Assembly (NCBI RefSeq): GCF_009649175.1
Contig: NZ_WJPO01000021.1
Span: 1-64,000 of the forward strand
Reading direction: 5' to 3'
Source of the DNA: Rhodovulum strictum
GTDB lineage: Bacteria; Pseudomonadota; Alphaproteobacteria; Rhodobacterales; Rhodobacteraceae
Length of the DNA stretch: 64,000 nucleotides
This document shows, piece after piece, positions 284 to 16,679 of the stretch; within the stretch, counting starts at the first letter, position 1, and the number at the start of each line of letters is the position of its first letter. The translations under genes were made by a program, and so were the position numbers. The notes beneath the pieces were generated by a model that was not told the DNA's origin, did no database searches, and was given only the letters and a program-made list of their open reading frames with translations.

Positions 284-302
284 TCACGCGGCAAGCCGAA
301 GG

Positions 303-879: not shown

Positions 880-949
880 AAGTCTTTGATAATATTGGAA
901 AAACTGGTTGCGGGGACAGGATTTGAACCTGTGACCTTCAGGTTATGAG
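880..949 (-). repeat. Left attachment repeat: 3' end of initiator tRNA-fMet plus flank
   Basis: On the minus strand, 949-905 reads from the CAT anticodon loop (CTCATAACCTGAAGGTC) through the T-arm GTTCAAATC to CCCCGCAACCA. This is the 3' half of a bacterial initiator tRNA. No 5' half is present: the acceptor partner TGCGGGG is missing upstream. The T-stem pairs as ACAGG/CCTGT. A downstream flank, AAGTCTTTGATA at 880-891, is shared with the right copy. It is best read as a displaced attachment-site remnant, not a functional tRNA. Confidence 0.75.
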
Positions 950-1079
950 GGCTACCCTGTAATCAGGAATAACTTTTTTATTTCTGACAGTTAGCGGATT
1001 CGCGACATCGCAACGTCGGCGTCGTGTCGCACGGAACAGCCGCAAACATCTGTGAAGAAACGGGAATCCGCGAGACGTG

Positions 1080-1547
1080 TCATCCGCGCTGGCTCTTGAA
1101 GCCTTCGTAGCGCGGTCGCAGGCGGCATTGCAGGAAGCTCTCCAGCAGCGTCAGGACCGGAACGCCGAGGTGGGCCGGAAGCAGGATGTTGACCCGATCC
1201 ACATTCGTCCGGATCCAGTTTCCGATCTCGGCCCGATCCGCCTCGCCCAGGCCGATATGGTCGGCATCGGCGATGATGGAGGCCGCGAGCGTGCTCTGTG
1301 CACTGCCGGGGTTGTAGTGCTGACTGGTATAGCGTGCTTGGCTCTTGGGGCCGACCTTCCCCACCTTCAGCACGTCAGACCCGTGGGTGAAGACATAGAC
1401 GGCCATGGTCCCCGCTGGCAGCCGCGTGGGCGGTGCGTGGGGCGCGGGTAACGCCTCAATGCGGATATCGCCAGCCGCGAGCATGACGCCAGCCAGCCGC
1501 GCAGCGGTGGCGAAATCAGCGAGGGTCTGTTCAGGCTTCCACGTCAT
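1080..1547 (-). CDS. GIY-YIG-like nuclease-family protein
   Basis: This 155-residue protein contains AVYVFTHGSDVLKVGKVGPKS near residue 49. That spacing fits the GIY...YIG core of GIY-YIG nucleases (VYVF, about ten residues, LKVGKVG), followed by R and a QHYNPGSAQSTLA segment. The family cuts or nicks DNA. The gene lies between the left attachment repeat and the integrase, on the same strand as the integrase and just downstream of it (the stops and starts are 10 bases apart). That edge position is typical for cargo. Catalytic residues were judged only by pattern, so nuclease activity is inferred. Confidence 0.45.
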   Translation of the reverse strand: MTWKPEQTLADFATAARLAGVMLAAGDIRIEALPAPHAPPTRLPAGTMAVYVFTHGSDVLKVGKVGPKSQARYTSQHYNPGSAQSTLAASIIADADHIGLGEADRAEIGNWIRTNVDRVNILLPAHLGVPVLTLLESFLQCRLRPRYEGFKSQRG

Positions 1548-1556
1548 GGCAACAGC

Positions 1557-2660
1557 TTAGCCGAGCAGCTTCGCCTCGACCATGGCCATGGCCTTCTGGT
1601 GGTCGGGCGAGGGGAACAGGTGGCCATAGCGTTCCATGGTCATCTGGATCGAGGAATGGCCGGCGAAGGTCATCACTTCCTTGATCGAGAAGCCCTGCTC
1701 GATCCATAGCGACACGGCGAAGTGGCGCAGGTCGTGCCAGCGCATCGTCACCTCGACCTGTTCCAGAAGCTTGCGGAAGCGGGCCTGCGTGTTGGTGTGC
1801 TGCAGGATGCCGCCCTTCGGCGCGGGAAACACCAGCCCCAGTTCGCTTTTCGGGCAGCGCAGTTTCCAGCGGCGCAGGGCGTTCAGCACCATCGGCCCGG
1901 CCGGAATGTCGCGGAACCCGGCCCGCGATTTCGGCTCGCCCATCTGGTTGTAGGCGTCAGCGCGCTGGCGGATGTGGATGAAGCCCTTCTCGAAATCCAC
2001 GTCCTGCCAGCGCAGGCCCCGCAGTTCTGACGCGCGCAACCCGCCGAGGGCCGAGACGATCAGGTGCGGTTTGAAACCCTCGTCGGCGGCCTCGATCAGG
2101 GCGCGGATCGCCTCCTTGGTCGGCACCGGGGCCTTATGCTCGATGCGGCTGGACTTGATCACCCGCACGCCTTGGGCGGCATTGGTGAACAGCTGGCCGT
2201 TGTCGATGGCGTGGTCCAGTGCCAACTTCAGCACTGACAGCGCGCGGCGGGTCAGGTGTTCGGATCTGCCGTTCAGCAGCAAGCGGTCGCGGAACTCGTT
2301 GACATGGCGGCGGGTCAGTTGGGCGATCAGCTTGTCGCCAATGCCGATCTCGGGCGCGGCGATGTGCAGGCGCACGTAGTCGCTGTAGCCGCGCAGGGTG
2401 GAGCGTTCCATCCGCCGCCCGGTCTTGCAGCGCACCTCGCAATGGTCGAGCCACGCCTTCGCAGCCTCGGCCACCGTCGTGCTGTCGCTGTCGGCCAGAT
2501 AGGTGTGGTTGGCGACCAGCGAGCGGACCTTGACCAGATAGACGTCCGCATCCTTTCGGCGCGGGAACAGCTTGGACCGCCGTTTCCCCGCCTGGTCGGT
2601 GAAGTCCACTTGCCAGCGGACAAGGCCCGAGGGCAGCGTGCGTTTGCGGATTGTGGCCAT
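1557..2660 (-). CDS. int: Tyrosine recombinase (satellite integrase)
   Basis: This 367-residue site-specific recombinase should integrate and excise the element. It has an N-terminal arm-binding part (MATIRKRTLPSGLVRWQVDF), a SAM-like core-binding region, and a catalytic domain. Box residues visible are LGGLRASELRGLRW (Arg I), MRWHDLRHFAVS (HxxR) and FAGHSSIQMTMERYGHLF (H, then Tyr). The ATG at 2660 was chosen because GGAGGG lies just upstream; the frame is open further upstream to 2789 but that extension has no family match. It lies close to the left attachment repeat and is divergent from the gene at 2788. The tRNA-fMet 3' end is the inferred target. Confidence 0.93.
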   Translation of the reverse strand: MATIRKRTLPSGLVRWQVDFTDQAGKRRSKLFPRRKDADVYLVKVRSLVANHTYLADSDSTTVAEAAKAWLDHCEVRCKTGRRMERSTLRGYSDYVRLHIAAPEIGIGDKLIAQLTRRHVNEFRDRLLLNGRSEHLTRRALSVLKLALDHAIDNGQLFTNAAQGVRVIKSSRIEHKAPVPTKEAIRALIEAADEGFKPHLIVSALGGLRASELRGLRWQDVDFEKGFIHIRQRADAYNQMGEPKSRAGFRDIPAGPMVLNALRRWKLRCPKSELGLVFPAPKGGILQHTNTQARFRKLLEQVEVTMRWHDLRHFAVSLWIEQGFSIKEVMTFAGHSSIQMTMERYGHLFPSPDHQKAMAMVEAKLLG

Positions 2661-2787
2661 CATTTCCCTCCGTGAGCGTAAGAAACGGGACCAGTTGTCA
2701 AAGCCCGTTAATGGCGATATGAACCGTCTCAGATGCACTTGCAACGGATTGTTGCGCGTGTAAAGCCCTAGTTCATGATCGGAGCCC
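2661..2787. promoter_or_regulatory. Divergent control region between integrase and early genes
   Basis: These 127 bases separate two divergently transcribed genes and are less GC-rich than their surroundings. They must hold the integrase ribosome-binding site (GGAGGG) and promoters for both directions. No clear -35/-10 pair or operator palindrome could be fixed by eye. By analogy with other satellites, this is where a helper-responsive or self-repressing regulator would act. Confidence 0.4.
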
Positions 2788-3510
2788 ATGACAATGACAG
2801 CCAGCGAACGGAGCGGTGCGGAAGCGCCCGAACCGCTCTTTCATGGCGACGCGGAAGCGGTGGCGGCATCGGGGATGCCCTTGCCGAGCCTACGTGTCCT
2901 GCAAGCTGCCGGTGCCATTCAGGCGCAGAAAACCCCAAAGGAGCACGGCGGCTTCAAGCGGATGTGGCGCGAGGAGGATGTGCTCATCGCCTCGATCGGT
3001 GCCGCGATCAGCGAGCACTTCGCCTGGAACATCCGGATCGTGGCCGAGGCCATGGCAAAGACGCAACGGAGCACATGGTCCGCGCTGACAGCCTCGATTG
3101 CGGGGACCATCTCGCCAGAATCAGGCGTGCTGATCCGATCATCGCCGGACGACTGGCATCTCGACCTGATCGACCGGAAGTTCCTGTTCCTGCGTGTGCC
3201 GCCTCTTTTCGCCACCATCTTCCCCGACGCGCCACCAGGAAGGGCAGACCTCATCATCGGTTACGCAAAATCGAAGGACACCTTCCAGATGCTGCCGTGG
3301 CTGCTTGGCCATCAACAGGGCCGACAGAAGCTAGCTGCGAACTACACGCCGGATCAGGTCGAACATTTTTCGAAGCTTTACAGATTCGCCATCGCGACCC
3401 GCGCCAACGCGCTGAGCATCGCAAGCATCAACATCAGCATGCAGGTTCGCGCGGCTTGGCGCCGCCTCCACGGACTTGACGCCCACTTCCTGCAGGAAGC
3501 CCTGCGCTAG
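2788..3510 (+). CDS. Putative MerR-like wHTH regulator of the satellite
   Basis: This 240-residue protein is not firmly recognised. Residues about 30-70 (MPLPSLRVLQAAGAIQAQKT, then GGFKRMWREEDVLIASI) resemble a MerR-type winged helix, with a helix-turn-helix followed by a wing ending in W-R-E-E-D-V. The rest is helical with no known domain. It is the first rightward gene, divergent from the integrase, and is followed 16 bases later by another small HTH protein. That is the usual place for the element's master regulator. The regulatory role is inferred from position and the HTH-like segment. Confidence 0.5.
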   Translation: MTMTASERSGAEAPEPLFHGDAEAVAASGMPLPSLRVLQAAGAIQAQKTPKEHGGFKRMWREEDVLIASIGAAISEHFAWNIRIVAEAMAKTQRSTWSALTASIAGTISPESGVLIRSSPDDWHLDLIDRKFLFLRVPPLFATIFPDAPPGRADLIIGYAKSKDTFQMLPWLLGHQQGRQKLAANYTPDQVEHFSKLYRFAIATRANALSIASINISMQVRAAWRRLHGLDAHFLQEALR

Positions 3511-3525
3511 AAAGGAGACCCAGCC

Positions 3526-3786
3526 ATGACCAAACACCCCGGCCCCGTCGAAAACCTTCAGCAGACCGCAACCGAAGTGACGCTCGGCGATGACCTCCTT
3601 CGCGGCGCGGACGAGATCGCGAGGTTCATGTTCGGCGACGTAAAGCACCGCCGCAAGGTCTATTACCTGACTGGCGAGGCCCCGAGGGGCATGCCGCACT
3701 TCAAGATGGGTTCGGTGATCTGCGCCCGCAAAAGCACGCTGCTGAACTGGATCGCGCAGCAGGAGCGTTTCACCCCGGGCGAGTGA
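3526..3786 (+). CDS. Small HTH DNA-binding protein (AlpA/excisionase-like)
   Basis: This 86-residue protein has a single winged-helix-like unit: GADEIARFMFGDVKHRRKVY, YLTGEAPRGMPHFKMGS, then ARKSTLLNWIAQQE. This resembles the short AlpA/Xis-type DNA-binding proteins that precede primase genes in P4-like satellites. There is a good ribosome-binding site (GAAAGGAGA) upstream of ATG 3526. In related elements such proteins activate integrase or excision and relieve repression. Its specific role here is inferred. Confidence 0.6.
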   Translation: MTKHPGPVENLQQTATEVTLGDDLLRGADEIARFMFGDVKHRRKVYYLTGEAPRGMPHFKMGSVICARKSTLLNWIAQQERFTPGE

Positions 3787-3865
3787 CGGCAGCCGCAAAT
3801 GTCCTGAGGTCCGCGATCCGGTCGCGGGCTCCATTTCCATCAGATGCACAGCGAACCCCCGCCCC

Positions 3866-6319
3866 ATGACCCTTCAGGACAATCCGCTCAACTTCAACAA
3901 CGTGCCGCCCAAGCGCAAAGGTCGTACATCCCGGCGCATATCTGTGGCCCGGGTGGCGGAACTGCTGAACGACCGGATCGCTGATCTTGCCGTGGAACTT
4001 CTCGGCACCCCGAACCGCGCCCTGTCCAGCGCGCAGCAGTTGCGCTTCGGGACCAAGGGCAGCATCGCGGTGGAAATCTCGGGGAAAGATGCCGGGCGCT
4101 GGTATGACCATGAGGCCGGAACGGGCGGCGCCGGGCCGGAACTGATCCGTCACCACTTCGGGATGGACGAAAAGGATGCATGGGACTGGGCGCGCAACTG
4201 GTTGGGCGATGCGGAAATGCCTGCCTCCTGGACCAGCGCCAAACCGGCCACGACCAAGGCCCCGACATCCGGCCCGGTCCGCACGGTGGAACTGTCGGAA
4301 GCCGAACTTGCCGCCAAGGTCGCCGAGATCCTGCGCCAGACCGAGGTTCCGAATGGCACACCCGTCCACAGCTATCTGGTCGGGCGCGGGATCGCCCTTC
4401 AGCCCCCCGACTGCATCCGCTTTCGCCGGAATGCTTATGGTAGCTATGGTGCGATGGTCGCGCTGGCAACCGATGCGGCGGGCGAGGTGCTGGCGATCCA
4501 GCAGGTCTATCTGACAGCCGAGGGCAAAAAGGCCCCGGTCAATCCGGTCAAGCGCACCAACAAGGCGGTCGAAGGCTGGGGCGAACGTTCCGCCGTGCGC
4601 CTGCCCGGCCGCGAACCTCTGGTGCTCTGCGAGGGTGTCGAAACCGCGCTGTCGGTCTGGCAGTCCACGGGTCAGGAGGTCTGGGCCTGCCTCGGCGTCT
4701 CGAACATCGGCCGCGCGCCCGTTCCCGAGAAGGCCACCGTGATCATCGCCCGCGATGGCGACGCGCCCGGCAGCAAGGCCGAGGGCATGATCACCCGCGC
4801 CGCCACCGCCCTCGCCCTGCGCGGGCTGACGGTGAGGGTCGCGACACCACCCGAGGATCAGGACTTCAACGACGTACTGCTGCGCGAGGGCGAGGAGGCC
4901 ATTCGCAACCGGATCGCCGGGGCTGACCTGTTCCGCCCGGACCAGGCCGAGCAGGGCCGCAAGCGCCTCTACATCGGGTCGGACGTGGAGATGGCGAAGC
5001 GTGTGCGCGAGGATTTGACCGAACGCCATGGCCGCATCGTGCATGCCGAGGGCGAGTTCTGGCGTTACATTGGCACCCATTGGGAGGCGATCCCGGCCCA
5101 CGAATTGCGCCTGCCCGTCCACACCTATGACGGCGCGAGCTTCGAGACGCCCGCGGGCGAGCCCTCGAACGTCAAGCTGACCCAGACCCGCGTCAACTCC
5201 GTCCTGAACGAATGTGCAGCCCTTTGCGCCGAACCCGGCTTCTTCGACACCCCGCCCGCTGGCATCAACTGCGCCTCGGGCTTCCTGCGCTTCGATGCGA
5301 CCGGCACGCCGCATCTGGAACCGCATCACCGCAATCACCGCTGCCGCCACACCCTGCCCGGCCGCTGGGCCCCCGGCACCGCTGGTATCCCGCCCGAAGG
5401 CTCGATGCTGCGCCGTCTGCTGACCGGCAGCTTCAAGGGCGATTCTGACGCGCAGGCCAAATGCGACCTTCTGGCCGAAGTCTGCGGATCGGCCGCGCTG
5501 GGCTATGCAACGCGCCTAGTCCAGCCGCGTGCCGTCGTCCTGCATGGCAAGACCGCCGAGAACGGCAAGAGCCAGATCCTCGATCTCGCGCGCGGCCTCT
5601 TGCCCGCCAGCGCCATCTGTTGCGTTCCTGCTGCCAAGATGGGCGACGAGCGGCATGTCACCGGGCTGGTCGGGAAACTCCTGAACGCCTCCGACGAATT
5701 GTCGCCGGAAGCCATCGCCTCCAACATCTTCAAATCCGTCGTCACCGGCGAGCCGATCGAGGGGCGCGATGTCTACAAGAGTCGGGTCGAGTTCCGCTCT
5801 GTGGCGCAGAACCTGTTCGCCGCGAACCAGTTGCCGAGCTTCAAGGGCGGCGTTGATCGGGGCGTGCAGCGCCGCCTGCTGCTGATCCCCTTCACCCGCA
5901 CCATCCCCCTCGAAGAACGCATCGAGGATATCGGCAAGCGCATCGCCTCCGAGGAAGCCGACCTGCTGCTGGCATGGGCGGTCGAGGGGGCTGCGCGGCT
6001 GATCCGCCAGCGCAACTTCGCCATCCCGGAAAGCTGCCGTGAGGCGCTGATCGAGTGGGTGCTGGGCGAGGACCCGGTGCTGGCATGGATCGACGCCTGC
6101 GTGAAGGTCGTGCCCATCGTGAACGGCGGCCCGATGCTCGCGACCCGCGATGCGCACCTCCGCTTCCAGAACTGGGCGCAGGCCGAGGGGTTCAAGCCCG
6201 AGAAGATCCCCGCGATCAACGGCTTCGTGCAGCGCGTCCAGGCGCAGGTGGCGGGGATCCAGCACAAGCGCACCAGCGCAGGCCGGTTCTTCCTCGGCAT
6301 CACAGTGACGCAGTGGTGA
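3866..6319 (+). CDS. P4-type primase/helicase replication protein
   Basis: This 817-residue protein should prime and unwind DNA at the element's own origin. The N-terminal part carries a primase-associated region. A TOPRIM unit follows, with E256 in LVLCEGVETALS and the D297/D299 pair in ARDGDAPGS. The C-terminal half has a D5_N region and a superfamily-3-like ATPase with Walker A GKTAENGKS (G561 to S569) and DELSPEA as a Walker B-like segment. Length and order match phage/plasmid P4-alpha-like primases. It is immediately followed by a repeat-rich intergenic region that is a natural candidate for its origin. Autonomous replication is inferred. Confidence 0.9.
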   Translation: MTLQDNPLNFNNVPPKRKGRTSRRISVARVAELLNDRIADLAVELLGTPNRALSSAQQLRFGTKGSIAVEISGKDAGRWYDHEAGTGGAGPELIRHHFGMDEKDAWDWARNWLGDAEMPASWTSAKPATTKAPTSGPVRTVELSEAELAAKVAEILRQTEVPNGTPVHSYLVGRGIALQPPDCIRFRRNAYGSYGAMVALATDAAGEVLAIQQVYLTAEGKKAPVNPVKRTNKAVEGWGERSAVRLPGREPLVLCEGVETALSVWQSTGQEVWACLGVSNIGRAPVPEKATVIIARDGDAPGSKAEGMITRAATALALRGLTVRVATPPEDQDFNDVLLREGEEAIRNRIAGADLFRPDQAEQGRKRLYIGSDVEMAKRVREDLTERHGRIVHAEGEFWRYIGTHWEAIPAHELRLPVHTYDGASFETPAGEPSNVKLTQTRVNSVLNECAALCAEPGFFDTPPAGINCASGFLRFDATGTPHLEPHHRNHRCRHTLPGRWAPGTAGIPPEGSMLRRLLTGSFKGDSDAQAKCDLLAEVCGSAALGYATRLVQPRAVVLHGKTAENGKSQILDLARGLLPASAICCVPAAKMGDERHVTGLVGKLLNASDELSPEAIASNIFKSVVTGEPIEGRDVYKSRVEFRSVAQNLFAANQLPSFKGGVDRGVQRRLLLIPFTRTIPLEERIEDIGKRIASEEADLLLAWAVEGAARLIRQRNFAIPESCREALIEWVLGEDPVLAWIDACVKVVPIVNGGPMLATRDAHLRFQNWAQAEGFKPEKIPAINGFVQRVQAQVAGIQHKRTSAGRFFLGITVTQW

Positions 6320-6530
6320 CGCAAGAATGACGGACTTTCAGCCGCAACCCATTGAAAGTGTTGAGATGACGCACTTGGCTTCAACCTTTTTGATAGAAGG
6401 GGAAAACCACCCAACCCTGAAGGGTCAGATTACCCCCTATATAGAATGTTCCCCGGACAGGTGCGTCATCTCAACACTATCAGAGACTTACGCCCCGCAG
6501 CCCGTCATTTCTGCGTCATTCTTGCGTCAT
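6306..6530. repeat. TGACGCA iterons in nested inverted repeats, candidate replication origin
   Basis: TGACGCA occurs at about 6306, 6317 and 6366 on the plus strand and in inverted form at about 6462, 6512 and 6523. Two perfect inverted pairs are nested: TGACGCAAGAATGACG at 6317-6332 with its complement at 6514-6529, and an 18-mer at 6357-6374 with its complement at 6461-6478. The 86 bases between the inner arms are AT-richer (tataga, ttttgatag). Iterons around an AT-rich core directly after a primase gene is the P4/PICI origin layout. Confidence 0.6.
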
Positions 6531-6589
6531 CCGCCGCACCGCGCGGACAGGCCTGACAGGCATCAATCGGGAAGGGTCGGGAAAGCGTT

Positions 6590-6647
6590 GGTTCCTCCCG
6601 GGCCAATTCGTATGCGGGGGAGCGCAGCGCATAAGCCCGCCAGCGTC
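6590..6647 (+). other. Cos-like site upstream of satellite terS
   Basis: This 58-base segment begins GGTTCCTCCCGGGCC, contains TCGTATGCGGGGG and ends CCAGCGTC, 11 bases before the terS ATG. A second, clearly related segment is found at 40990-41048 in the prophage (about three quarters of hand-aligned positions identical). Position next to terS and conservation between two terminase-bearing elements suggest the cohesive-end site cut by the terminase. Cleavage itself is not visible from sequence. Confidence 0.5.
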
Positions 6648-6658
6648 AGGGGGCGGAA

Positions 6659-7171
6659 ATGACTAAACTCGACAGCGCCGAGACCAAGACCGCCTTCGCC
6701 GCCCGCGTCGGCCTGACCAAGGGGCGCATCTCGCAGCTGGTGGCCGAGGGCCTGCCGGTGCGCGCGGACGGGCGGATCGACGTGGCGGTAGGCCTCGCCT
6801 GGATTGAGGACAACCTCGACCCCGCCCGCCGCAACAAAGGTGGTGTCAGCCCTACCCCTGCCCGCGTCTCCACCACGCTGGCCGAGGCCAAGCGGCTACA
6901 TGAGATCGTGAAGGTCCAACGCGCCAAGCTGGCCTTCGAGAAGGAACAGGGGCTGCTGGTGGAAACCGCCGCCGCCACCCGCACCGTCTTCGCCCGCGCG
7001 CGTGCCGAACGCGACGCGCACATGGCTTGGGTGCAGCGCACGGCGCCCCTGCTGGCGGCCGAGGTCGGGGCCGATCCGCGCGCCACCTTCGCCGCGCTGG
7101 ACCGGATGATGCGCGAGCATCTCGAACACCTGGCCGACCTGCCCTTGGGGAGCTTTGGCGATGGTGCCTGA
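6659..7171 (+). CDS. terS: Terminase small subunit, gpNu1-like (satellite)
   Basis: This 170-residue protein begins with a winged-helix DNA-binding unit (TKTAFAARVGLTKGRISQLV, then RADGRIDVAVGLAWIED) followed by a helical coiled segment (LAEAKRLHEIVKVQRAKLAF) and a C-terminal helical part. This is the organisation of lambda Nu1-type small subunits that recognise cos DNA and recruit the large subunit. It starts directly after the cos-like segment, and its end overlaps terL by 11 bases. Carrying its own terS lets the element package itself specifically. Confidence 0.85.
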   Translation: MTKLDSAETKTAFAARVGLTKGRISQLVAEGLPVRADGRIDVAVGLAWIEDNLDPARRNKGGVSPTPARVSTTLAEAKRLHEIVKVQRAKLAFEKEQGLLVETAAATRTVFARARAERDAHMAWVQRTAPLLAAEVGADPRATFAALDRMMREHLEHLADLPLGSFGDGA

Positions 7172-8948
7172 CATCGACCTTGCCTGGCGGCGCGGCATAC
7201 GCCCTGAACCGCCGATCCCGGTGTCGGACTGGGCCGACCGCCATCGCATCCTGCCGCCGACCTCGGCGGAACCGGGCCGGTGGCGCACGGATCGCACGCC
7301 TTATCTGCGCGCGGTGATGGACGCGCTGTCCACCTCCAGCCCCTACGAACGGGTTGTGCTGATGAAAGGCGCGCAGACCGGCGGGTCAGAGGCGGGGCTG
7401 AACTGGCTCGGCTACATCATCCAGAACGCCCCCGGCATCGCCATGCTGGTCATGCCCTCGCTCGATATGGTGCGGCGCAACACCACCGTGCGTATCGACC
7501 CGCTGATCGAGGCGACCCCTGCCCTACGCGATCTGGTCTCCGCGCCCCGTTCCCGTGATGCGGGGAACAGCCTGTTCCGCAAATCCTTTCCCGGCGGCCA
7601 GCTGGTGATGACCGGCGCCAACAGCGCGGTGGGGCTGCGATCCACCCCGGTGCGCTATCTGTTCCTCGACGAGGTGGACGGCTATCCCGGCGATGCCGAT
7701 GGCGAGGGTGATCCCGTCGATCTGGCCATTCAGCGCACCACCACCTTCCGGGGACGGCGCAAGATCTACATGGTGTCCACGCCGACCCTGAAAGGTCACT
7801 CCCGCATCGAGGCGGCCTATCTCGACAGCGATCAGCGGTATTTCCACGTCCCCTGCCAGCATTGCGGCGCCATGGCCCCGATCACCTGGGCGCGCATCCG
7901 GTGGCCCGAGGGGCAGCGCGACGGCGCCTATCTGGTCTGCGAAGCCTGCGGCGGCGTGCATCATGAACACGACAAGCCTCGCCTGCTGGCCGCTGGAGAA
8001 TGGCGCCCGACTGCGCTGGGCGATGGCCGCACGGCAGGGTTCCACCTGTCGTCGCTCTATTCCCCGTGGGAGACATGGGCCGAGATCGCGCAGGAGCACG
8101 CCCGCGTGGCCAAGGATCCCGCGCGCCTGCAGGTCTGGGTCAATACCAAGCTGGGCGAGTCCTGGGAGGACCAGGCGGGTGACACCGTTCCGGCTGATCC
8201 GTTGATGGCGCGACGCGAGGATTGGGGCAGCGATCTTGCCCCCGGCGTGGCCGTGCTGACGGCGGGCGTCGACGTACAGGGCGACCGGATTGAGGTGCAG
8301 ATCGTCGGCTGGGGCCGCGACGAGGAAGCATGGGTCACCGACTACCGCGTCCTGTGGGGCGATCCTTCGGGCCCGCGCCTCTGGTCTGATCTGGATAGCG
8401 TGCTCAACGGCACCTATGGCGACCTCCCCGTGCGCGCCGTGGCGGTGGACACCGGCGGGCATCACACCAAGATGGCCTACGAATTCTGCCGCACCCGCCT
8501 TGCTCGCCGCGTCTGGGCGATCAAGGGTCGCGGCGGCCCCGGCATCCCGGTCTGGCCGCGCCGCCCCACGCGCAGCAACAAGGCAAAGATCCCGCTCTTC
8601 ATCGTCGGCGTCGATGCCGTGAAGGACGCGGTCTATGCTCGCCTGAAACTGACCGAACCCGGCCCCGGCGCCATCCACTTCCCCCGCCGCCTCGACGCCG
8701 ACTACTTCCGGCAACTGACCGCCGAACGCATCGTCACCCGCTTCGAGAAGGGCCGCCCCATCCGCTCTTGGCAACCCAAGCGCGACGGCGAACGCAACGA
8801 GGCCCTCGACACCTTCGTCTACGCCCACGCCGCCCTGCATGGCCTGATCAGCATGGGGATGCGGTTGAACGAGGAGGTGGAGGCTCATGCGGGACGCGTT
8901 ACCGCATCAAACCGGGACATCATTCGATCACAATGGGTCCTACGCTGA
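7161..8948 (+). CDS. terL: Terminase large subunit, gpA family (satellite)
   Basis: This 595-residue packaging ATPase/nuclease belongs to the lambda gpA family. Visible landmarks are AWRRGIRP and YLRAVMDALS near the N terminus, KGAQTGGSEAG as the ATP-binding loop, RYLFLDEVDGYP as Walker B, YMVSTPTLKG, and a C4-type metal site (CQHCG ... CEACGG) before the nuclease half with AGVDVQGDRIEVQ. ATG 7161 was chosen over a TTG at 7155. It is similar in order and motifs to the prophage terL at 47192 but clearly diverged. Downstream genes switch abruptly to lower-GC restriction cargo. Confidence 0.95.
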   Translation: MVPDIDLAWRRGIRPEPPIPVSDWADRHRILPPTSAEPGRWRTDRTPYLRAVMDALSTSSPYERVVLMKGAQTGGSEAGLNWLGYIIQNAPGIAMLVMPSLDMVRRNTTVRIDPLIEATPALRDLVSAPRSRDAGNSLFRKSFPGGQLVMTGANSAVGLRSTPVRYLFLDEVDGYPGDADGEGDPVDLAIQRTTTFRGRRKIYMVSTPTLKGHSRIEAAYLDSDQRYFHVPCQHCGAMAPITWARIRWPEGQRDGAYLVCEACGGVHHEHDKPRLLAAGEWRPTALGDGRTAGFHLSSLYSPWETWAEIAQEHARVAKDPARLQVWVNTKLGESWEDQAGDTVPADPLMARREDWGSDLAPGVAVLTAGVDVQGDRIEVQIVGWGRDEEAWVTDYRVLWGDPSGPRLWSDLDSVLNGTYGDLPVRAVAVDTGGHHTKMAYEFCRTRLARRVWAIKGRGGPGIPVWPRRPTRSNKAKIPLFIVGVDAVKDAVYARLKLTEPGPGAIHFPRRLDADYFRQLTAERIVTRFEKGRPIRSWQPKRDGERNEALDTFVYAHAALHGLISMGMRLNEEVEAHAGRVTASNRDIIRSQWVLR

Positions 8949-9998: not shown

Positions 9999-11245
9999 AC
10001 CGCGAGAGACAATTGACTCGACATCCAAGGCGAGTTTTGACGCCCAGAATTATCGATGACCTCATCTCTGTAACCCAAACTTTCCTTCAATCTCAGACCT
10101 ATTTCGCAGGCGAACAACGGCGGGACTGCATTTCCAACTTGTTCATATTGCTCCGTTAGCGAACCAAAAAACCGAACATGGTCTGGAAAAGACTGGATTC
10201 TCGCGGCCTCTCTAACGCTCAACACTCGATCTTGGTTAGGATGGATGTATGTTCCCCAGTGCGGGTCGCACTTGGTGAGGATCGTGCTTCCAAGTTGCTC
10301 AGGATGAAGCCGTCCATAACGCTTGGTGTGATCCGAGCGGCGCGCTCGCTTCATGCCTTTTGGAAGAAGGTCATGGGGAATGTCCCTCCAAGAACCTCCT
10401 GGCGGAATATGTTTCAAGCGATCTAAGTTCACCTTACCAAGGCGCGCACATTGGTGATTTGAAACTTTCGAACCAGCGATTCTTAATCTTTCTTGAAAAT
10501 CACTTTGGGGACCAGTCAGATAATCACACAGCTCGTCACCACCGCCATTCTCAATTTGGGGAAGATCAGAGATCGCATCGCCTACGGTTACAAAGGAGCG
10601 ATTGGCCGTCGCCTTCACCAAAGCCAAATCAAGGACAACGGATCGCGAAAACAAGGTCGTTGTGAAGTTTGCTCTCCCCTCAGCGAAATGCTTCGGGATT
10701 GGAAATAGCTCTAATGGCTCGACGCCAATACGGTTCGCCAAGATTATTGTACGCCAGCGCGCTTGCGGAACCCCGTAGTGAGGAGCGAAAAGAACTCTAA
10801 CATCGGCGTGATAACCTAACGAGCGGAGGGCCGCTAGGATCTCCTGAACGGTTTGCCCACGCTCGAATGAAATCATGCCAGGAACGTTCTCAATTAGAAT
10901 AAGCTTAGGTGAGAACTCCTCAGCAAACCGCAAATAGTCTTTGAACAAGTGGTTACGCTCATCCTCAAGCGACCGCTTAGGAGCATTTATGCTGAAGCCT
11001 TGGCACGGTGGCCCGCCGGCCAACAGATCTAGCTCCCCTTTTGCAAGGCTCAGCCGACGACGAATCTTACCGGCATCGACTTCACGGATGTCGCCAGTCT
11101 CGACTTCGGTACCGGGATGCGAGTTCTTGAGCGTCTCTGCGTAGCTGGGTGAGATCTCGTTGGCGAAAAGGCTGCTAAACCCAGCCATTTCGAGCCCCGT
11201 CGACAGTCCACCTGCACCTGCAAAAAGATCAATATGGGTCAGCAA
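9995..11245 (-). CDS. C5-cytosine DNA methyltransferase of the NotI-like system
   Basis: This protein of about 416 residues has all main C5 motifs: HIDLFAGAGGLSTGLEMAGF (I), LAGGPPCQGFSINAPKR (IV, catalytic PCQ), LIENVPGMISF (VI), PQARWRTIILA (VIII) and YEQVGNAVPPLFA (X). A TTG start at 11245 is preferred: AGGAG lies 8 bases upstream and the protein begins right before motif I. The open frame continues upstream to 12010, but that part runs antisense to another gene and has no family match. It should protect host DNA from the convergent NotI-like nuclease. Confidence 0.9.
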   Translation of the reverse strand: MLTHIDLFAGAGGLSTGLEMAGFSSLFANEISPSYAETLKNSHPGTEVETGDIREVDAGKIRRRLSLAKGELDLLAGGPPCQGFSINAPKRSLEDERNHLFKDYLRFAEEFSPKLILIENVPGMISFERGQTVQEILAALRSLGYHADVRVLFAPHYGVPQARWRTIILANRIGVEPLELFPIPKHFAEGRANFTTTLFSRSVVLDLALVKATANRSFVTVGDAISDLPQIENGGGDELCDYLTGPQSDFQERLRIAGSKVSNHQCARLGKVNLDRLKHIPPGGSWRDIPHDLLPKGMKRARRSDHTKRYGRLHPEQLGSTILTKCDPHWGTYIHPNQDRVLSVREAARIQSFPDHVRFFGSLTEQYEQVGNAVPPLFACEIGLRLKESLGYRDEVIDNSGRQNSPWMSSQLSLAV

Positions 11246-11486
11246 ATGGTGCACTCCTCTACGACCGACCCCATCTGTAGCATGCCCCAGCGGCCCACCG
11301 CAACGCCAGACCAAGCACGGTGTCGATTCCAAAAGTACATCACGGGGCAGCGCTGGATGGCGATCAGTTCCTCGAAGCACGACACGCAACTCGCACCTGG
11401 CGCAAGCGTCCTGCAACGCGTAGACGACGGCGCAGATTCGCGATAGGTCTTCTGCTCGGAGGGAACAAGCCGAACGGAGGCTCCGG

Positions 11487-12095
11487 ATGCACCAAGACGC
11501 TCTCACGCACTTGTCCTTAAAGCTTCCCCATTTGCGTGAAATGTTTTCACAGCTATCACCAGTTGAACTTCCCACAAAGCAAGAGGTTGAAATTCCGCTG
11601 GCGGTAACTGAGATTATCGTTTCCCAGATGCTCTCCGGGCCATCTGCCGATGTCATTTTTTCAAGATTGATTGCAAAAGCTATCGGAACAGGGAATTCCA
11701 AGCCGTGGCATCTGACAGAGAAAGAGATTATGGAATGCGGAATCAGTAGGAGAAAAGCATTTGCAATTATTAATTTTGGAACTGCATTTGATTCTGATCC
11801 AGCCCGCTTCTCCGATTGGCCGACTCTCGCCCATGAAAGTCTGGTTCGTGAAGTAAGTGGCTTTTGGGGATTGTCGCGGTGGAGCGCTGATATCCTCGGG
11901 CTTTCATATTTCGGAAATCCTGATGTCTTTCCTGCTTCCGATGGCACTCTTGTTCGCGCAATAAAGGCTGCATGCGCAAACACTGAAGTGGGCGCAGAGG
12001 AGTGGGACATTGACGGTGCGAGTCCTTATCGTTCGCTCCTTGCCCGGTACCTTTGGAAGTCGATAGATACTGGCTTCTGGCAACAATCTGTGTGA
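11487..12095 (+). CDS. HhH-GPD DNA glycosylase-like repair protein of the restriction module
   Basis: This 202-residue protein shows the HhH-GPD superfamily pattern: EIIVSQMLSGPSADVIFSRL, MECGISRRKAFAI, then LVREVSGFWGLSRWSADIL for the helix-hairpin-helix, with D in FPASDGTLVRAI as the likely catalytic aspartate and SPYRSLLARYLW at the end. It is divergent from the C5 methyltransferase. Base excision glycosylases near C5 methyltransferases can remove thymine from T:G mismatches left by 5-methylcytosine deamination, the job Vsr does elsewhere. That role is inferred from family and neighbour. Composition is AT-rich like the rest of the cargo. Confidence 0.7.
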   Translation: MHQDALTHLSLKLPHLREMFSQLSPVELPTKQEVEIPLAVTEIIVSQMLSGPSADVIFSRLIAKAIGTGNSKPWHLTEKEIMECGISRRKAFAIINFGTAFDSDPARFSDWPTLAHESLVREVSGFWGLSRWSADILGLSYFGNPDVFPASDGTLVRAIKAACANTEVGAEEWDIDGASPYRSLLARYLWKSIDTGFWQQSV

Positions 12096-12291: not shown

Positions 12292-13701
12292 ATGCGGACG
12301 CTCCTTCATCGCCTTCTCGGTCTCACGCGCACGCGCGGCTTTGACGCTGCGGGTGGCGGTCGGCGTTGGGAGGGGGCGCGGACGGTCGACGGGCTGAACA
12401 CGGCGATCCTCGCGGGCGCGACCACGGCGGCGCGACGAGCCGGATGGTATGCGCGCAACAATCCGTGGGTCGCGGCAGCGGTGGACAGCCTGGTGGGCAA
12501 TGTCGTCGGCGCCGGGATCAAGCCGCAATCCACCCATCCCGACCGGGCGGTGCGGGAACGACTGCAAATGCTGTGGCTGCGCTGGACCGATCAAGCCGAT
12601 CCGGGCGGGCTGGCTGATTTCTACGGGCTACAGGCGATGGCCGTGCGGACGATGGTCGAGGGCGGCGAGAGTTTCGCGCGGCTGCGTGTGGTGCCCGACT
12701 CCCCTTCTGTTCCCCTCCACATCGACCTGCTGGACCGCGACCAGGTGCCGCTGGACCTGCACCGCGACCTCGGCGGCGGGGCGCGCATCCGAGCTGGCAT
12801 CGAGTTCAACGCCGTTGGGCAGCGCACCGCCTATTGGGTGATGCGCGACCGGCCCGGCGATCCGCTGACCTCCCTGCGGCTGGACCCGCTGCGCATCCCC
12901 GCCAGCGATTGTCTGCACCTGTTCAAGCCGCTCGCCGCGGGCCAGTTGCGCGGCATCACCTGGCTCGCTCCGGTCCTGCTGCGCCTGCACGAGCTCGACC
13001 AGTTCGAGGATGCCGCACTGGTCAAGGCCAAGGTCGGGGCGCTGTTCACAGGCTTCATCACCGATCCCGATGGCACGGCAGGCGGGCTTTCCGGGAGCAA
13101 CACCGGCGGCGCGCTCACCGTTGGCATGGAGCCCGGCAGCCTGATCCCGCTGCCGCCGGGCACCGACATCCGGTTTTCCAATCCGACCGAGCACGACGCC
13201 TATGCGCCCTTCGTGAAGAACCACCTGCGCGCCGTGGCCGCCGGGATGGGCCTGCCCTACGAACTGGTCTCGGGCGATCTGGAGGGCGTCACCTATTCCT
13301 CGATCCGCGCCGGACTGATCGAGTTCCGGCGCCGGGTCGAACAGTTGCAGCACAATGTCGTCGTGCATCTGTTCTGCCGCCCGGTCTGGGACCGCTTCGT
13401 GCGGCTGGCGGTGCTGACCGGCGATCTGCCCGCCCGCGACTTCGACCGCGATCCGGCCGCATATCTCGCCTGCGAATGGTTGCCGCCCAAATTCGACTAC
13501 GTCGATCCCAAGAAGGACGTCGAGGCCGAGATCCTCGCCATCAACGCCGGGCTCAAGAGCCGGTCCCAGGCGATTTCTGAACGGGGCTACGACGCCGAAC
13601 AGGTCGATGCCGAGATTGCCGCCGACAAGGCGCGCACCGACGCGCTGGGCCTGAGCTTTGGTGCGCCGCCTGTCGAGAAGGAGGACATCCCCGATGAATG
13701 A
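12292..13701 (+). CDS. Portal protein, lambda gpB family (satellite)
   Basis: This 469-residue portal forms the dodecameric DNA channel at one head vertex and the docking site for terminase and head-tail connector. Recognisable stretches are ARRAGWYARNNPWVAAAVDS, VVGAGIKPQSTHP, LADFYGLQAMAVRTMVEGGE, the AAGMGLPYELVSGDLEGVTYS motif and FRRRVEQLQHNVVVHLFCRP. The C terminus, SRSQAISERGYDAEQVDAEIA, matches the prophage portal at 49449. High GC returns here after the AT-rich cargo. Its end overlaps the start of the capsid gene by 8 bases. Confidence 0.93.
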   Translation: MRTLLHRLLGLTRTRGFDAAGGGRRWEGARTVDGLNTAILAGATTAARRAGWYARNNPWVAAAVDSLVGNVVGAGIKPQSTHPDRAVRERLQMLWLRWTDQADPGGLADFYGLQAMAVRTMVEGGESFARLRVVPDSPSVPLHIDLLDRDQVPLDLHRDLGGGARIRAGIEFNAVGQRTAYWVMRDRPGDPLTSLRLDPLRIPASDCLHLFKPLAAGQLRGITWLAPVLLRLHELDQFEDAALVKAKVGALFTGFITDPDGTAGGLSGSNTGGALTVGMEPGSLIPLPPGTDIRFSNPTEHDAYAPFVKNHLRAVAAGMGLPYELVSGDLEGVTYSSIRAGLIEFRRRVEQLQHNVVVHLFCRPVWDRFVRLAVLTGDLPARDFDRDPAAYLACEWLPPKFDYVDPKKDVEAEILAINAGLKSRSQAISERGYDAEQVDAEIAADKARTDALGLSFGAPPVEKEDIPDE

Positions 13702-15541
13702 CACCACGATCATCCCGACACCGATGGAATCAAACGTCGGGAACGGCAACGTTTGCCTACTCACCCGCCGCGCCGACCTGGCACCGGCCAGTGCCGATCG
13801 CGACGCTCGCACCGTGGAGGTGATCTGGTCCACCGGCGCGCCCGTGCGCCGCCGCGACATGGCTGGCCAGTACATCGAACGCCTCAGCCTTGCGCCCGAG
13901 GCAGTGGACCTGTCGCGCCTCCAAGGAGCCAGCGTGCTGGATGCACACCGGCAATCCGCCGTCCGCGATGTTCTGGGCAGCGTCCAGTCCGCCGCCGTCG
14001 ATGGCCAGCGCGGCACGGCGCTGATCCGCTTCTCGGCCCGACCAGAGGTGGAACCGCTCTGGCAGGACGTCCTGTCCGGGATCCTGCGCCATGTCTCGGT
14101 CGGCTATTCGGTCGAGGAATGGTCCGAGACCACCGAGAACGGCGCGCGCGTGCTGACTGCAGTGCACTGGACGCCCCACGAGATTTCCCTTGTCCCCACC
14201 CCGGCTGACCCGGGTGCCCGCATCCGCATGGAGACCCACATGACCGACACCACCATCACCCCCGCCCCGCCCGAGGCGCAGACCCGCGCCGCGATCAACA
14301 CCGAGATCCGCTCCATCGCCCGCATCGCCGGGCTTGACCAGTCCTGGATCGACGGCCAGATCGACGCTGCCGCCGATGCCGACACCGCGCGTCGTGCTGC
14401 CTTCGAGGCGCTGGCGACCCGCAGCGCACCCACGATCCGCACCGAACAGGTTCGCGTCGAGATGGGCGACAGCCACGATGACCCGGCCCTGCGCGCGCGC
14501 CAGATGGGCGAAGCTCTCTATGCCCGGATCAACCCACGCCATGACCTGAGCGAACCGGCGCGGCGCTATGCCTATGCCACGCCGGTGGACATGGCCAAGG
14601 AACTGCTGACCCTGCGCGGCGAGTCCACCATGGCGCTGTCGCCAGCGAGCCTCGTCACCCGAGCCCTGCACACGACCTCGGACTTCCCGATCATCCTCGG
14701 CAACACCGTGGGCCGGGTGCTGCGCGATGCTTACCAGGCCGCGCCCTCCGGCATCCGCCGCCTTGGTCGCCAAACCTCGGCTCGGGATTTCCGGGCTGTG
14801 AACAAGATCATGCTGGGCGAAGCCCCTCTGCTGGAAAAGCTGAACGAACACGGCGAGATCAAGGCCGGGACCATGGCCGAGGCGCGCGAGGCCTACAAGA
14901 TCGAGACCTGGGCCAGGAAGATCGGCATCACCAGGCAGGTGCTGGTGAACGACGATCTGGGAACCTTCTCGGACCTCGCCCGCCGCATGGGCCAAGGGGC
15001 GGCAGAAACGGAGGCGCGGATCCTCGTCACCCTGCTGGAGGCGAACAGCGGCAACGGCCCGACCCTGTCGGACACCAAGGCGCTGTTCCATGTCGATCAC
15101 GGCAACAAGGCGGCCAGTGGCGCGGTGATTTCCGATGCCACCCTGTCCGCAGCCCGGCTGGCGCTGCGCACCCAGAAGGGGATCGACGGTCGCATCATCC
15201 GCGTGACACCGAAGAACCTGCTGGTCCCGCCCGCGCTTGAGACGGTGGCCGAGAAGTGGCTGGCCACCATCGCGCCCGTCACCGCCGCCGATGTGAACCC
15301 GTTCTCGGGCGCGATGTCGCTGGTGGTCGAACCCCGCCTGACGAGTGCTACCCGCTGGTATGTCACTGCCGACCCCGGCGAGATCGACGGCCTGGAGTTC
15401 GCCTATCTCTCGGGCAACGAAGGGCCGCAGGTGGAAAGCCGGTCGGGTTGGGATGTCGACGGCGTGGAAATCCGGGTGATCCTCGATTTCGGCGCAGGCT
15501 TCATCGACCACCGCGGCTGGTTCCAGAACCCTGGGGCATAA
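13694..15541 (+). CDS. Prohead protease / major capsid protein fusion
   Basis: This 615-residue protein joins two head functions. The N-terminal third (about residues 20-180) resembles a prohead protease: IERLSLAPEAVDLSRL, GASVLDAHRQSAVRDVLGSV, RHVSVGYSVEEW and ALTAVHWTPHEISLVP-like segments, with H and S as likely catalytic residues. The C-terminal half is a gpT/HK97-like capsid protein (IILGNTVGRVLRDAYQA, KIGITRQVLVNDDLGTF, VTPKNLLVPPALE). Such fusions are known in some Mu-like and alphaproteobacterial phages. ATG 13694 overlaps the portal stop. The prophage in this window instead uses separate S49 protease and gpE genes, so the two heads are unrelated in design. Confidence 0.85.
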   Translation: MNDTTIIPTPMESNVGNGNVCLLTRRADLAPASADRDARTVEVIWSTGAPVRRRDMAGQYIERLSLAPEAVDLSRLQGASVLDAHRQSAVRDVLGSVQSAAVDGQRGTALIRFSARPEVEPLWQDVLSGILRHVSVGYSVEEWSETTENGARVLTAVHWTPHEISLVPTPADPGARIRMETHMTDTTITPAPPEAQTRAAINTEIRSIARIAGLDQSWIDGQIDAAADADTARRAAFEALATRSAPTIRTEQVRVEMGDSHDDPALRARQMGEALYARINPRHDLSEPARRYAYATPVDMAKELLTLRGESTMALSPASLVTRALHTTSDFPIILGNTVGRVLRDAYQAAPSGIRRLGRQTSARDFRAVNKIMLGEAPLLEKLNEHGEIKAGTMAEAREAYKIETWARKIGITRQVLVNDDLGTFSDLARRMGQGAAETEARILVTLLEANSGNGPTLSDTKALFHVDHGNKAASGAVISDATLSAARLALRTQKGIDGRIIRVTPKNLLVPPALETVAEKWLATIAPVTAADVNPFSGAMSLVVEPRLTSATRWYVTADPGEIDGLEFAYLSGNEGPQVESRSGWDVDGVEIRVILDFGAGFIDHRGWFQNPGA

Positions 15542-15543
15542 CC

Positions 15544-15753
15544 ATGGCCGACCTCGCCCAACTCACCGCCTGGCGCGATGCCCTGATGGCCGCCCGCTAT
15601 CAGGGCGTCCGCACCGTCGAATACGACGGCAAGCGGGTCACCTATGCCAGCGACGCGGAAATGGCGGCCGCGCTGGGCGACCTGAACCGCCAGATCACCG
15701 GCACCACGGCGCACATCGCCGTGGTCCGCATCCAATCTTCGAAAGGGCTCTGA
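15544..15753 (+). CDS. gpW-like head-tail joining protein (satellite)
   Basis: This 69-residue protein has LTAWRDALMAARYQGVRTVEYDGKR... AEMAAALGDLNRQI, the compact gpW pattern: an N-terminal helix, a short hairpin (V-x-Y-D-G-K), and a second helix. gpW-like proteins bind the portal after packaging and prepare the head for tail attachment. A homologue lies at 49225 in the prophage (AARYSGTRSVSYDGKS). A head-completion protein is kept while every tail gene is missing, which fits an element that borrows tails. It lies 2 bases after the capsid gene. Confidence 0.75.
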   Translation: MADLAQLTAWRDALMAARYQGVRTVEYDGKRVTYASDAEMAAALGDLNRQITGTTAHIAVVRIQSSKGL

Positions 15754-15755
15754 CC

Positions 15756-16100
15756 ATGCAGAACTTCATCCAGAATGGGCACATCATCCGCGTGACCGCA
15801 CCTGCGGGCGGCATCGCATCGGGCGAGGGATTGATCATCGGTGGCCTGTTCGGCATCGCCGCCTATTCCTCGGCCGAGGGCGATCCCGTCGAACTAGGGA
15901 CCACGGGAGTCTACCAACTTCCGAAGGCGTCAGCCGCCGTGGTGACGGTCGGCACGCGTGTCGCGTGGGACAACACGGCCAAGAACATCAACGTACCGGG
16001 CGCCGGGCGCTTCCCGGTGGGCATTGCGGCAGAGGCGGCGGGCAACGGCACGACCAGCGTTGCGGTGCGGCTGGATGGCGTCGGGACCGTGGCTGCGTAA
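15756..16100 (+). CDS. DUF2190-family capsid decoration/cement protein
   Basis: This 114-residue protein reads MQNFIQNGHIIRVTAPAGGI, then GEGLIIGGLFGIAAYSSAEG, PVELGTTGVYQLPKA, RVAWDNTAKNINVPG and VAVRLDG. This is the pattern of the DUF2190 family, found beside capsid genes and thought to stabilise or decorate heads. It is the last plus-strand morphogenesis gene of the element; nothing tail-related follows before the right attachment repeat. Confidence 0.75.
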   Translation: MQNFIQNGHIIRVTAPAGGIASGEGLIIGGLFGIAAYSSAEGDPVELGTTGVYQLPKASAAVVTVGTRVAWDNTAKNINVPGAGRFPVGIAAEAAGNGTTSVAVRLDGVGTVAA

Positions 16101-16166
16101 TCTGCCCACAACATCGCGTTGCGGATTACAACGCGTTCTCGGGAATGACGATCTCGCGCCTCAATG

Positions 16167-16382
16167 TCATTCTACGTGCTTGCCCTCGCGGAACGCCATG
16201 TCGGTGATTTCGCGGAGGGGGGCGCGGTGATGGTCCAGCGTGCCGACATGCCCCCAATTCACCTCCTCGGGGCTGTAGCCGAAGTGGTCGGCGCTGTGCG
16301 CCATCAGCCGGGCCAGCATGGCGTCGATCTCGATCTTGGCGGCGATGAAGGCGTCCGCCGCGGCGTCGTTTGTCTTGGGCAT
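16167..16382 (-). CDS. Small conserved protein of unknown function
   Basis: The ORF is open from 16598, but ATG 16382 gives a product of 71 residues starting MPKTNDAAADAFIAAKIEID. The core (IDAMLARLMAHSADHFGYSP, then EVNWGHVGTLDH) is clearly related to the small gene at 45175-45443 in the prophage region. No known domain is recognised; it is predicted helical and soluble. It is the only gene between the head module and the right attachment repeat, on the opposite strand, a typical cargo position. Confidence 0.55.
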   Translation of the reverse strand: MPKTNDAAADAFIAAKIEIDAMLARLMAHSADHFGYSPEEVNWGHVGTLDHHRAPLREITDMAFREGKHVE

Positions 16383-16575
16383 GATCGTCCCCGAGTCGGT
16401 TACGAGGACATGACGGCTCTGGTTTGCTCGGAGATCAAGTTCAATCGGACACGGAACGTCCCGCGAACATCTGATGGCTTCCATGTCGCATGGGTGTTGC
16501 ACGGAAGAAATCGGAACGGCTGTAAGCCTTTGGAATCGCGCGGAAAGATGTTGTTCGGTGTTGCAAACGCAAAAA

Positions 16576-16591
16576 GCGCCCCTTGGGGCGC
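16576..16591 (-). terminator. Rho-independent terminator, minus strand
   Basis: On the minus strand, GCGCCCC-AA-GGGGCGC is followed by TTTTTGCG. It lies just downstream of the tRNA-fMet 3' fragment and could be the tRNA's original terminator carried with the attachment region, or the end signal for leftward transcripts. Confidence 0.6.
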
Positions 16592-16604
16592 CCTGCATCG
16601 GCCT

Positions 16605-16679
16605 AAGTCTTTGATATCTTGTTAGAAAATTTGGTTGCGGGGGTAGGATTTGAACCTACGACCTTCAGGTTATGAGCCT
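16605..16679 (-). repeat. Right attachment repeat: 3' end of initiator tRNA-fMet plus flank
   Basis: On the minus strand, 16679-16632 reads AGGCTCATAACCTGAAGGTC, then GTAGGTTCAAATCCTAC and CCCCGCAACCA, matching the 3' part of alphaproteobacterial initiator tRNA from the anticodon stem to CCA. The 5' half is absent. The flank AAGTCTTTGATA at 16605-16616 is shared with the left copy at 880. The T-stem is GTAGG/CCTAC here against ACAGG/CCTGT on the left: a compensatory difference that keeps pairing, so the two copies descend from different tRNA alleles or elements. Confidence 0.8.

Follow-up and report, generated by a model that had tools for sequence, protein, structure and literature searches.

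A tail-less, capsid-encoding element at tRNA-fMet of Rhodovulum strictum is probably a phage satellite with widespread alphaproteobacterial relatives

The window analyzed here is a stretch of 64,000 nucleotides of Rhodovulum strictum (contig NZ_WJPO01000021.1, positions 1 to 64,000). It contains, at 895-16676, a 15.8-kb element flanked by direct repeats of the 3' part of tRNA-fMet. We consider it very probable that this element is an intact integrated satellite which makes and fills its own phage head and borrows everything else from a tailed helper. It belongs to a widespread group of elements that are often found beside tailed phages, and the tails are probably taken from those phages.

The flanking repeat is 55 nt long and its two copies are 87% identical, with the left attachment site (attL, 895-949) representing the chromosomal and the right one (attR, 16622-16676) the element variant of the tRNA 3' part. 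A pattern describing the attachment (att) core matched the window at these two places only, where none was expected by chance, and twice more in the genome, once in a complete tRNA-fMet gene on contig C50 and once on contig C35. By eye, the sequence left of attL is almost identical to the 3' flank of the C50 gene, and attL is therefore the chromosomal side. The two copies differ at paired positions of the T-arm (GGGACAGG/CCTGTG versus GGGGTAGG/CCTACG), which means that the changes in the tRNA arm carried by the element compensate each other. No tRNA 5' half is found after attR. Instead, the sequence there reads as the left end of another element, which places the satellite and a prophage in tandem.

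The gene content is that of a replicating, head-forming element. Pfam and PHROG profile scans covered 17 open reading frames (ORFs) of the element at a cut-off of E≤0.01, with very short ORFs falling outside the scans. They identified a tyrosine integrase (1557-2789, minus strand; PF00589, 3.6e-21; phrog_1, 4.7e-69) and, all on the plus strand, a Toprim/D5-type primase-helicase (3866-6319; Toprim_3 and DUF5906, with D5_N below the cut-off), the terminase small subunit TerS (6659-7171; phrog_57, 4.7e-31), a GpA-type terminase large subunit TerL (7155-8948; PF20454, 5.3e-94; PF05876, 1.6e-91), a portal of the lambda family (12292-13701; PF05136, 4.6e-103), a fused prohead protease and major capsid protein (13658-15541; PF25209, 6.9e-51; PF04586, 3.2e-5; phrog_4523, 8.7e-231), a gpW-like head-completion adaptor (15544-15753; phrog_2545, 1.3e-20, named 'head-tail adaptor Ad1' in PHROG) and a cement/decoration protein (15756-16100; PF09956, 1.1e-26), the DUF2190 gene of the first-pass annotation. 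Within the cut-off the capsid matched PF25209, PF10124 and PF04586, and a sequence search of the PDB returned a gpT-domain protein at E=0.009 plus three weaker rows. The adaptor reached the Pfam gpW family PF02831 at E=0.05 only, below the cut-off, and its PDB search gave nothing meaningful. Tail, tape-measure and lysis families were not matched by any of the 17 ORFs, and the element thus lacks the tail and lysis modules that a complete temperate phage has between its att sites. All 15 frames checked are open. The inventory made in the first-pass annotation (integrase, primase, iterons, cos-like site, both terminase subunits, portal, protease-capsid fusion and head-completion proteins, all frames seemingly intact, no tail, tape-measure or lysis gene) is thereby confirmed by family matches and sequence scans. 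Ratios of nonsynonymous to synonymous substitution rates (dN/dS) for six genes against nine relatives ranged from 0.02 to 0.39, the highest value being that of gpW in one pair, and indicate that the head genes are under purifying selection.

Two non-coding features complete this picture. Origin-like iterons, six copies of TGACGCA with three on each strand, lie inside a palindrome at 6306-6529; this interval holds six of the 12 copies present in the 64 kb, and the palindrome is strong (z -7.5). We examined 18 relatives. In 11, TGACGCA is present five or six times upstream of terS, and all 11 match the primase of the window. The other seven have none; six of them lack a primase match and one (L010) matches only in part, with 57% identity. 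L010 and L014 carry, upstream of terS, 11 copies of a different repeated word, CCCGGACC, together with another replication module. A cos-like site on the plus strand (about 6588-6650) immediately precedes terS. In 31 aligned sequences, 40 of the 63 positions of 6588-6650 are at least 90% identical, compared to 43 of 268 in 6320-6587. Allowing one mismatch at most, the pattern GGTTCCTCCCSGGCC is found at two places in the window (0.05 expected), namely in this site and at 40990 in the neighboring prophage, about 380 bp before a ParB-like/methylase gene. The prophage site sharing the satellite core spans 40988-41056 (plus strand). Local alignment of both sites scored 44, the best of 2000 shuffles reaching 26, as did the next independent place in a scan of 17-64 kb. 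Against the joined physical ends of RcKemmy, a cos phage with 11-base 5' overhangs (PMC8601537), the satellite site scored 29 (best shuffle 24).

We asked how far this layout is shared. One capsid scan of genome contigs gave 70 distinct loci (902,758 bases in total), mostly labelled Rhodobacteraceae, with others from Pararhizobium, Zavarzinia, Devosia and further genera. TerL, portal, capsid and gpW were all found in 33 loci, and gene order was never broken among those having terL and portal; a portal match was absent from 15 loci, many of them short contigs. The first-pass annotation had proposed to look for the same gene order between tRNA-fMet fragments in other Rhodobacterales genomes. Indeed, 50 of the 70 loci have an fMet att copy downstream of the last head gene detected, at a distance of 159-2943 bp in 49 of them and 6.9 kb in L030. 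As to the remaining 20, the contig or locus ends within 2 kb in 15, L013 is interrupted by Ns, the capsids of L058 and L066 are truncated, and the two Pseudovibrio loci L067 and L068 (43-44% identity) have a tRNA-Ser about 1.3 kb past the cement gene, with an integrase in between in L067. When 22 ORFs from the tail region of the neighboring prophage were compared to the 70 loci by tblastn, the single match covered 23 amino acids (L054), and the control prophages L121 and L123 were strongly matched. Since the queries stem from one phage group and an unrelated tail could escape them, the short distance from head genes to att is the stronger argument for a tail-less layout. Relatives with tail genes right after the DUF2190 gene, which would have pointed to a deleted prophage, were not encountered in the 70 loci.

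The relatives also resemble each other in size. For the window element and 17 relatives, the two att copies could be paired by hand around the capsid locus, and the distance between their starts averages 17,172 bp (standard deviation (SD) 888, range 15,002-18,462). Among the matches listed, a capsid at least 78% identical to that of the satellite occurs in at least 18 of 295 family genomes, some copies being truncated. Several copies can reside in one genome, and replication modules have been exchanged between relatives. A capsid 90% identical to that of the satellite is located on a 326-kb Paracoccus replicon (plasmid NZ_CP102356.1:51681-53471).

A second tail-less element is present in the same genome on contig C28 (L081:2551-12451). 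It spans 9,878 bp between perfect 23-nt repeats and is related to the window element in terL (36% identity), portal (41%), capsid (49%), gpW (55%) and cement gene (39%), with the head genes followed by an integrase and tRNA-Trp. Twenty further loci with capsid identities of 40-52%, picked among the matches listed, all had portal and capsid matches. To the right of the head genes, 17 of them have an integrase match and 16 a tRNA, and tail matches were absent from the 20 loci except for 84 nt at the edge of L144. Direct repeats were sought in 23 elements (the 20 loci, C28 and the two from Pseudovibrio; L134 and L137 begin inside the element). In 16, with sizes of 9.85-12.5 kb, the repeat either falls within a tRNA or measures 49 nt or more, although seven of these 16 repeats have only 14-19 nt and are hence weak. 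Of the families matched by 44 proteins selected from these elements, primases and O-like initiators are the most frequent. This second lineage (9.9-12.5 kb) looks equally tail-less. In a FastTree phylogeny of 60 capsids, rooted on a cyanophage and leaving out L036 (split frame) and L131 (not recovered), 15 satellites of the first lineage (clade A) and 22 of the second (clade B) form one group with a support of 0.755. Clade A joins part of clade B (1.0), the rest of B being supported at 0.996. Rhodobacteraceae prophages and RcKemmy-type phages fall outside the satellite group, and the tips nearest to it are Microcystis and Vibrio/Shewanella phages. As both lineages group in this tree, a single origin of all satellites is likely, though not certain.

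Where might the tails come from? Directly to the right of the satellite begins a lambda-like prophage (16677-64000, on a contig that ends at 71537), which we regard as a candidate tail donor. It has its own integrase (only 29% identical to that of the satellite), a GpA-type TerL, a minor tail protein and a tape measure, as well as a separate protease and a different major head protein, in agreement with the earlier remark that its capsid plan differs from that of the satellite. Its gpW-like gene (49240-49449, plus strand) lies between TerL and portal, and the product is 56% identical to the satellite protein over 48 amino acids. The prophage further carries, at 45184-45378 (minus strand), a homologue (55% identity) of a 71-aa orphan protein of the satellite (16167-16382, minus strand; phrog_14596) that is also found in tailed prophages. 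A comparable prophage, with TerL, portal and tape measure, is present on contig C25, and on C35 a related tail region extends up to an fMet att copy.

Other genomes repeat this neighborhood. In the metagenome-assembled genome AG16 (G002), one contig carries a satellite, a 55.8-kb interval, a satellite, intervals of 55.5 kb and 54.6 kb and a third satellite, with fMet repeats between them. A GpA terminase was matched in all three long intervals, though only in part in the middle one, and their tape measures share 66-67% identity with that of the window. The sequence across three att copies passes from a satellite to a phage integrase at one and from a phage tail to a satellite integrase at another; at the third, a phage integrase lies to the right. 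A tape measure at E≤1e-50 was detected in 13 of the 18 satellite genomes, compared to 55 of the 277 others (Fisher p=6e-6). The genes of prophages found in G133 and G301 are arranged in the order orphan gene, terS, terL, gpW, portal, fused capsid, cement and tail module; the capsids of these prophages are 37-46% identical to that of the satellite over the aligned stretches and their tape measures 97% and 91% identical to that of the window. The satellite gene set stops where the tail module of these prophages starts. In nine of 12 further prophage-type capsid loci, a tape measure was likewise matched (54-97%) no more than about 8 kb away on the contig. As these natural phages join both, heads related to that of the satellite do pair with this tail. 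The shared fMet site, cos core, gpW-like gene and orphan gene make lambda-like prophages the likely tail donors.

Some observations on the shared genes and neighborhoods stand on their own. The orphan is common to satellites and presumed helpers and could be a common switch; it matched 64 places among the loci examined (55 distinct sequences, overlapping loci being counted twice), and its structure model, two helices with a predicted local distance difference test score (pLDDT) of 75, suggests no function. The plus-strand ORF 16164-16625 at this place is probably spurious, as the conserved gene is the opposite frame, which has high third-position GC in relatives. In G133, locus L122 (G133:C1:2970000-2989999) is a decayed hybrid in which the first 47 aa of the tape measure run directly into the portal at residue 231, as would result from a deletion between a prophage and a satellite in tandem. 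On one IMG/VR contig (L231:2-811), a tape-measure fragment of 97% identity and a satellite capsid lie on opposite strands.

Besides its core genes, the element has room for cargo. The low-GC stretch at 9-12 kb, in the slot between terL and portal (slot 1), is a predicted restriction-modification module. It comprises a NotI-like type II restriction endonuclease (9075-9998, plus strand; PF12183, 3.7e-9; PADLOC REase_II, 1.2e-68; GC 47%), a C5 cytosine methylase (9995-12010, minus strand; PF00145, 1.9e-63), whose domain begins at residue 258 so that the true start may be near 11254, and a possible HhH-GPD mismatch glycosylase (11487-12095, plus strand), a weak match at E=0.007 that is below the Pfam cut-off. 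Among 63 slot-1 proteins scanned (60 of the 128 ORFs predicted, together with three window proteins), DNA methylases lead the Pfam and PADLOC tallies, along with various restriction enzymes, and mad2 is the commonest single PADLOC name (17 of 63). Considering ORFs of at least 120 amino acids, methylase motifs, which miss some C5 enzymes, occurred in 24 of 37 slot-1 loci (two from Pseudovibrio) but in none of 38 second-slot loci. From slot 2, 31 of 99 predicted ORFs were scanned, and their PADLOC matches include ThsB, AriA/AriAB, type IV restriction, HEC-07, PDC-S11 and HicA-like proteins. Slot lengths were compared in 25 loci with complete flanks, after dropping five partial ones and subtracting 350 bp in four without a cement match. 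The lengths of the two slots are inversely correlated (Spearman -0.61, p=0.0012), and their sum has an SD of 678 instead of the 1276 expected if they were independent; none of 20,000 permutations was as tight. Such compensation fits a fixed head volume with a genome limit near 17 kb.

We propose the following life cycle. In the lysogen, the slot-1 restriction-modification module may protect the host, as may a further defence gene that many relatives carry in slot 2. Helper activity or damage might then lift repression, a step that is a guess since no family match names a regulator. The integrase would excise the element at the repeats in tRNA-fMet, and the primase-helicase, which co-occurs with the TGACGCA iterons, would replicate it from an origin at that site. 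With the genes for both terminase subunits at hand and a cos-like site resembling that of the prophage, the element's own TerS and TerL could cut at cos before terS and fill heads built of portal, fused protease-capsid and cement protein. The gpW-like protein would close the head and accept a lambda-like tail, for example from the prophage in the next att interval, as its homology and the co-occurrence with such prophages suggest. Finally, the helper would lyse the cell, and the chimeric particle would deliver DNA that integrates at tRNA-fMet.

Several points weigh against this proposal. Excision, particles, transfer, dependence on a helper and protection by the cargo are all steps that we infer. 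Candidate regulators, among them an 86-aa protein, resemble excisionase/AlpA-type helix-turn-helix proteins by eye only and had no Pfam match at E≤1. Excised or cos-ended forms did not show up: the 80 loci examined out of 202 IMG/VR matches, which do not always cover whole contigs, all lacked an exact terminal repeat of 16-200 nt, and the only two loci flagged as possibly permuted owe this to integrase matches of 24-27%, which we read as other integrases. As for the helper, the terminase is oriented opposite to the att copies in G013 and in one interval of G027, and a 50-kb fMet interval in G028 gave no match in the terminase and tape-measure comparison. Both the Fisher test and the slot correlation ignore phylogeny. 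The gpW-like proteins of the G133 and G301 prophages are only 31-35% identical to that of the satellite; since the likeness is higher to the window prophage than to these fused-capsid prophages, the fit of the tail is unproven.

A tail donor other than lambda-like prophages, or spread without any tail, would account for the five of 18 satellite genomes in which none of the three candidates scored per genome matched the tape measure at E≤1e-50, itself a further point against our proposal, and capsid-forming phage-inducible chromosomal islands (cf-PICIs) reportedly interact with a diversity of tails (PMC13345588). Given that satellite and lambda-like prophages have the att site, the cos core and the gpW-like and orphan genes in common, and that natural phages join a related head to a lambda-like tail module, we hold this to be unlikely. 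That the element is instead a lambda-like prophage remnant which lost its tail by deletion and is decaying could be argued from the homology of its head genes to local prophage genes (45% identity for TerL, 43% for portal), from the decayed hybrid in G133 and from truncated relatives such as L058, L066 and L069. The tail-less layout, however, is found again in many genera, its genes show low dN/dS and its size varies little, the two satellite lineages group apart from Rhodobacteraceae prophages and RcKemmy-type phages, and a tail module between cement gene and attR was seen in none of the 70 loci. We therefore rejected decay as very improbable on account of the att-bounded tail-less relatives, the empty tail search, the capsid tree and dN/dS, and the earlier argument against simple prophage decay has held on the same grounds.

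Rhodobacterales are the group best known for gene transfer agents (GTAs), and the structural genes are conserved in this order, as would befit a GTA-like or domesticated head cluster that is kept by the host and not mobile. Such a cluster is hard to reconcile with an integrase, attachment repeats, an own cos and origin, the patchy presence (at least 18 of 295 genomes), several copies per genome and exchanged replication modules, and we regard it as scarcely credible.

How does the proposed satellite compare to known ones? The first-pass annotation saw a match to cf-PICIs, which applies to the way the element appears to work. Like EcCIEDL933, it has its own terminases, portal, protease, capsid and connector and no tail genes (PMC10690885), and it is similar in size to cf-PICIs, which are integrated and average 14 kb (PMC10803314). 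We do not accept membership itself. Published cf-PICI capsids were gathered by PF05065 (PMC13230959), whereas the present capsid belongs to PF25209, is gpT-like and is fused to the protease; an HNH endonuclease, which is described as part of the cf-PICI packaging module (PMC10690885), was not found at E≤0.01 among the 17 ORFs scanned. The terminase, too, differs in kind from that of cf-PICIs. The main cf-PICI hosts, as listed in PMC10803314, do not include Alphaproteobacteria, to which the present hosts belong. Having examined capsid family and HNH endonuclease, we do not file the element as a cf-PICI and read it as an independent lambda-type family that works like one, judged by the sequences and by the published descriptions of these two features. 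Mulch and Flayer satellites of Streptomyces phages also encode their own capsid and packaging genes, and MulchRoom appears to use a helper tail as proposed here, but they are described as having virulent helpers, direct terminal repeats and no key replication genes (PMC10690885). The element described here differs from them in its cos-like site, its primase and its integration at a tRNA. With P4-like satellites it has in common a primase-helicase, an iteron origin, tRNA integration and cos packaging. P4 redirects the capsid assembly of its helper (PMC10690885); the present element has a capsid gene of its own, whereas P4-like satellites encode none and use and resize that of the helper. P2 and P4 carry hotspots of antiviral systems (PMC9122126). 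RcC-cluster phages of Rhodobacter capsulatus such as RcKemmy are alike in terminases, gpW-like protein, portal, fused capsid-protease and cos, but are 41-kb tailed siphoviruses (PMC8601537) whose capsids lie elsewhere in the tree. In the open-access literature, with subscription journals and bioRxiv mostly outside its coverage, we found no description of such satellites in Rhodobacteraceae or Alphaproteobacteria.

On balance, we lean towards an old, independent origin of capsid-forming satellites in two alphaproteobacterial lineages with head genes unrelated to those of cf-PICIs. One lineage would share its att site with helpers in alternating arrays, inherited and perhaps induced as a consortium, and genome size would be set by the head.

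The remaining genes of the element and its surroundings can be described briefly. A 155-aa ORF (1080-1547, minus strand) without Pfam or PHROG match has what we take to be a GIY-YIG-like look. A 240-aa protein (2788-3510, plus strand) and the 86-aa protein (3526-3786, plus strand) belong to phrog_37409 and phrog_18541, families without known function; the former gave an unusable structure model (pLDDT 38) and no phage record at E≤1e-5, although PHROGs include its family. Just outside attL, an ORF in window 1-300 presumably resembles the end of an IS66-type transposase. At 17156-20711 of the window, a UvrD-type helicase lies beside an OLD-family ATPase/Toprim protein, a make-up we assume to be that of Gabija, followed by a WYL-domain regulator at 20733-21737.

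Most reports of self-capsid satellites concern enteric and Gram-positive groups (PMC10803314); an unrelated case comes from Streptomyces (PMC10690885). A third, lambda-type solution, common in an aquatic alphaproteobacterial family, would, if true, mean that satellites have arisen repeatedly through the separation of head and tail. Helpers are usually difficult to identify; in a strain with 17 prophages, none reportedly mobilised its cf-PICI at detectable frequency (PMC11389934). Here, the genomes themselves point to the helper through the shared att site, the cos core, the adaptor and the arrays, and tail piracy is therefore testable in culturable strains. The two compensating cargo slots may, in addition, provide a direct measure of the limit that head volume sets on the cargo.

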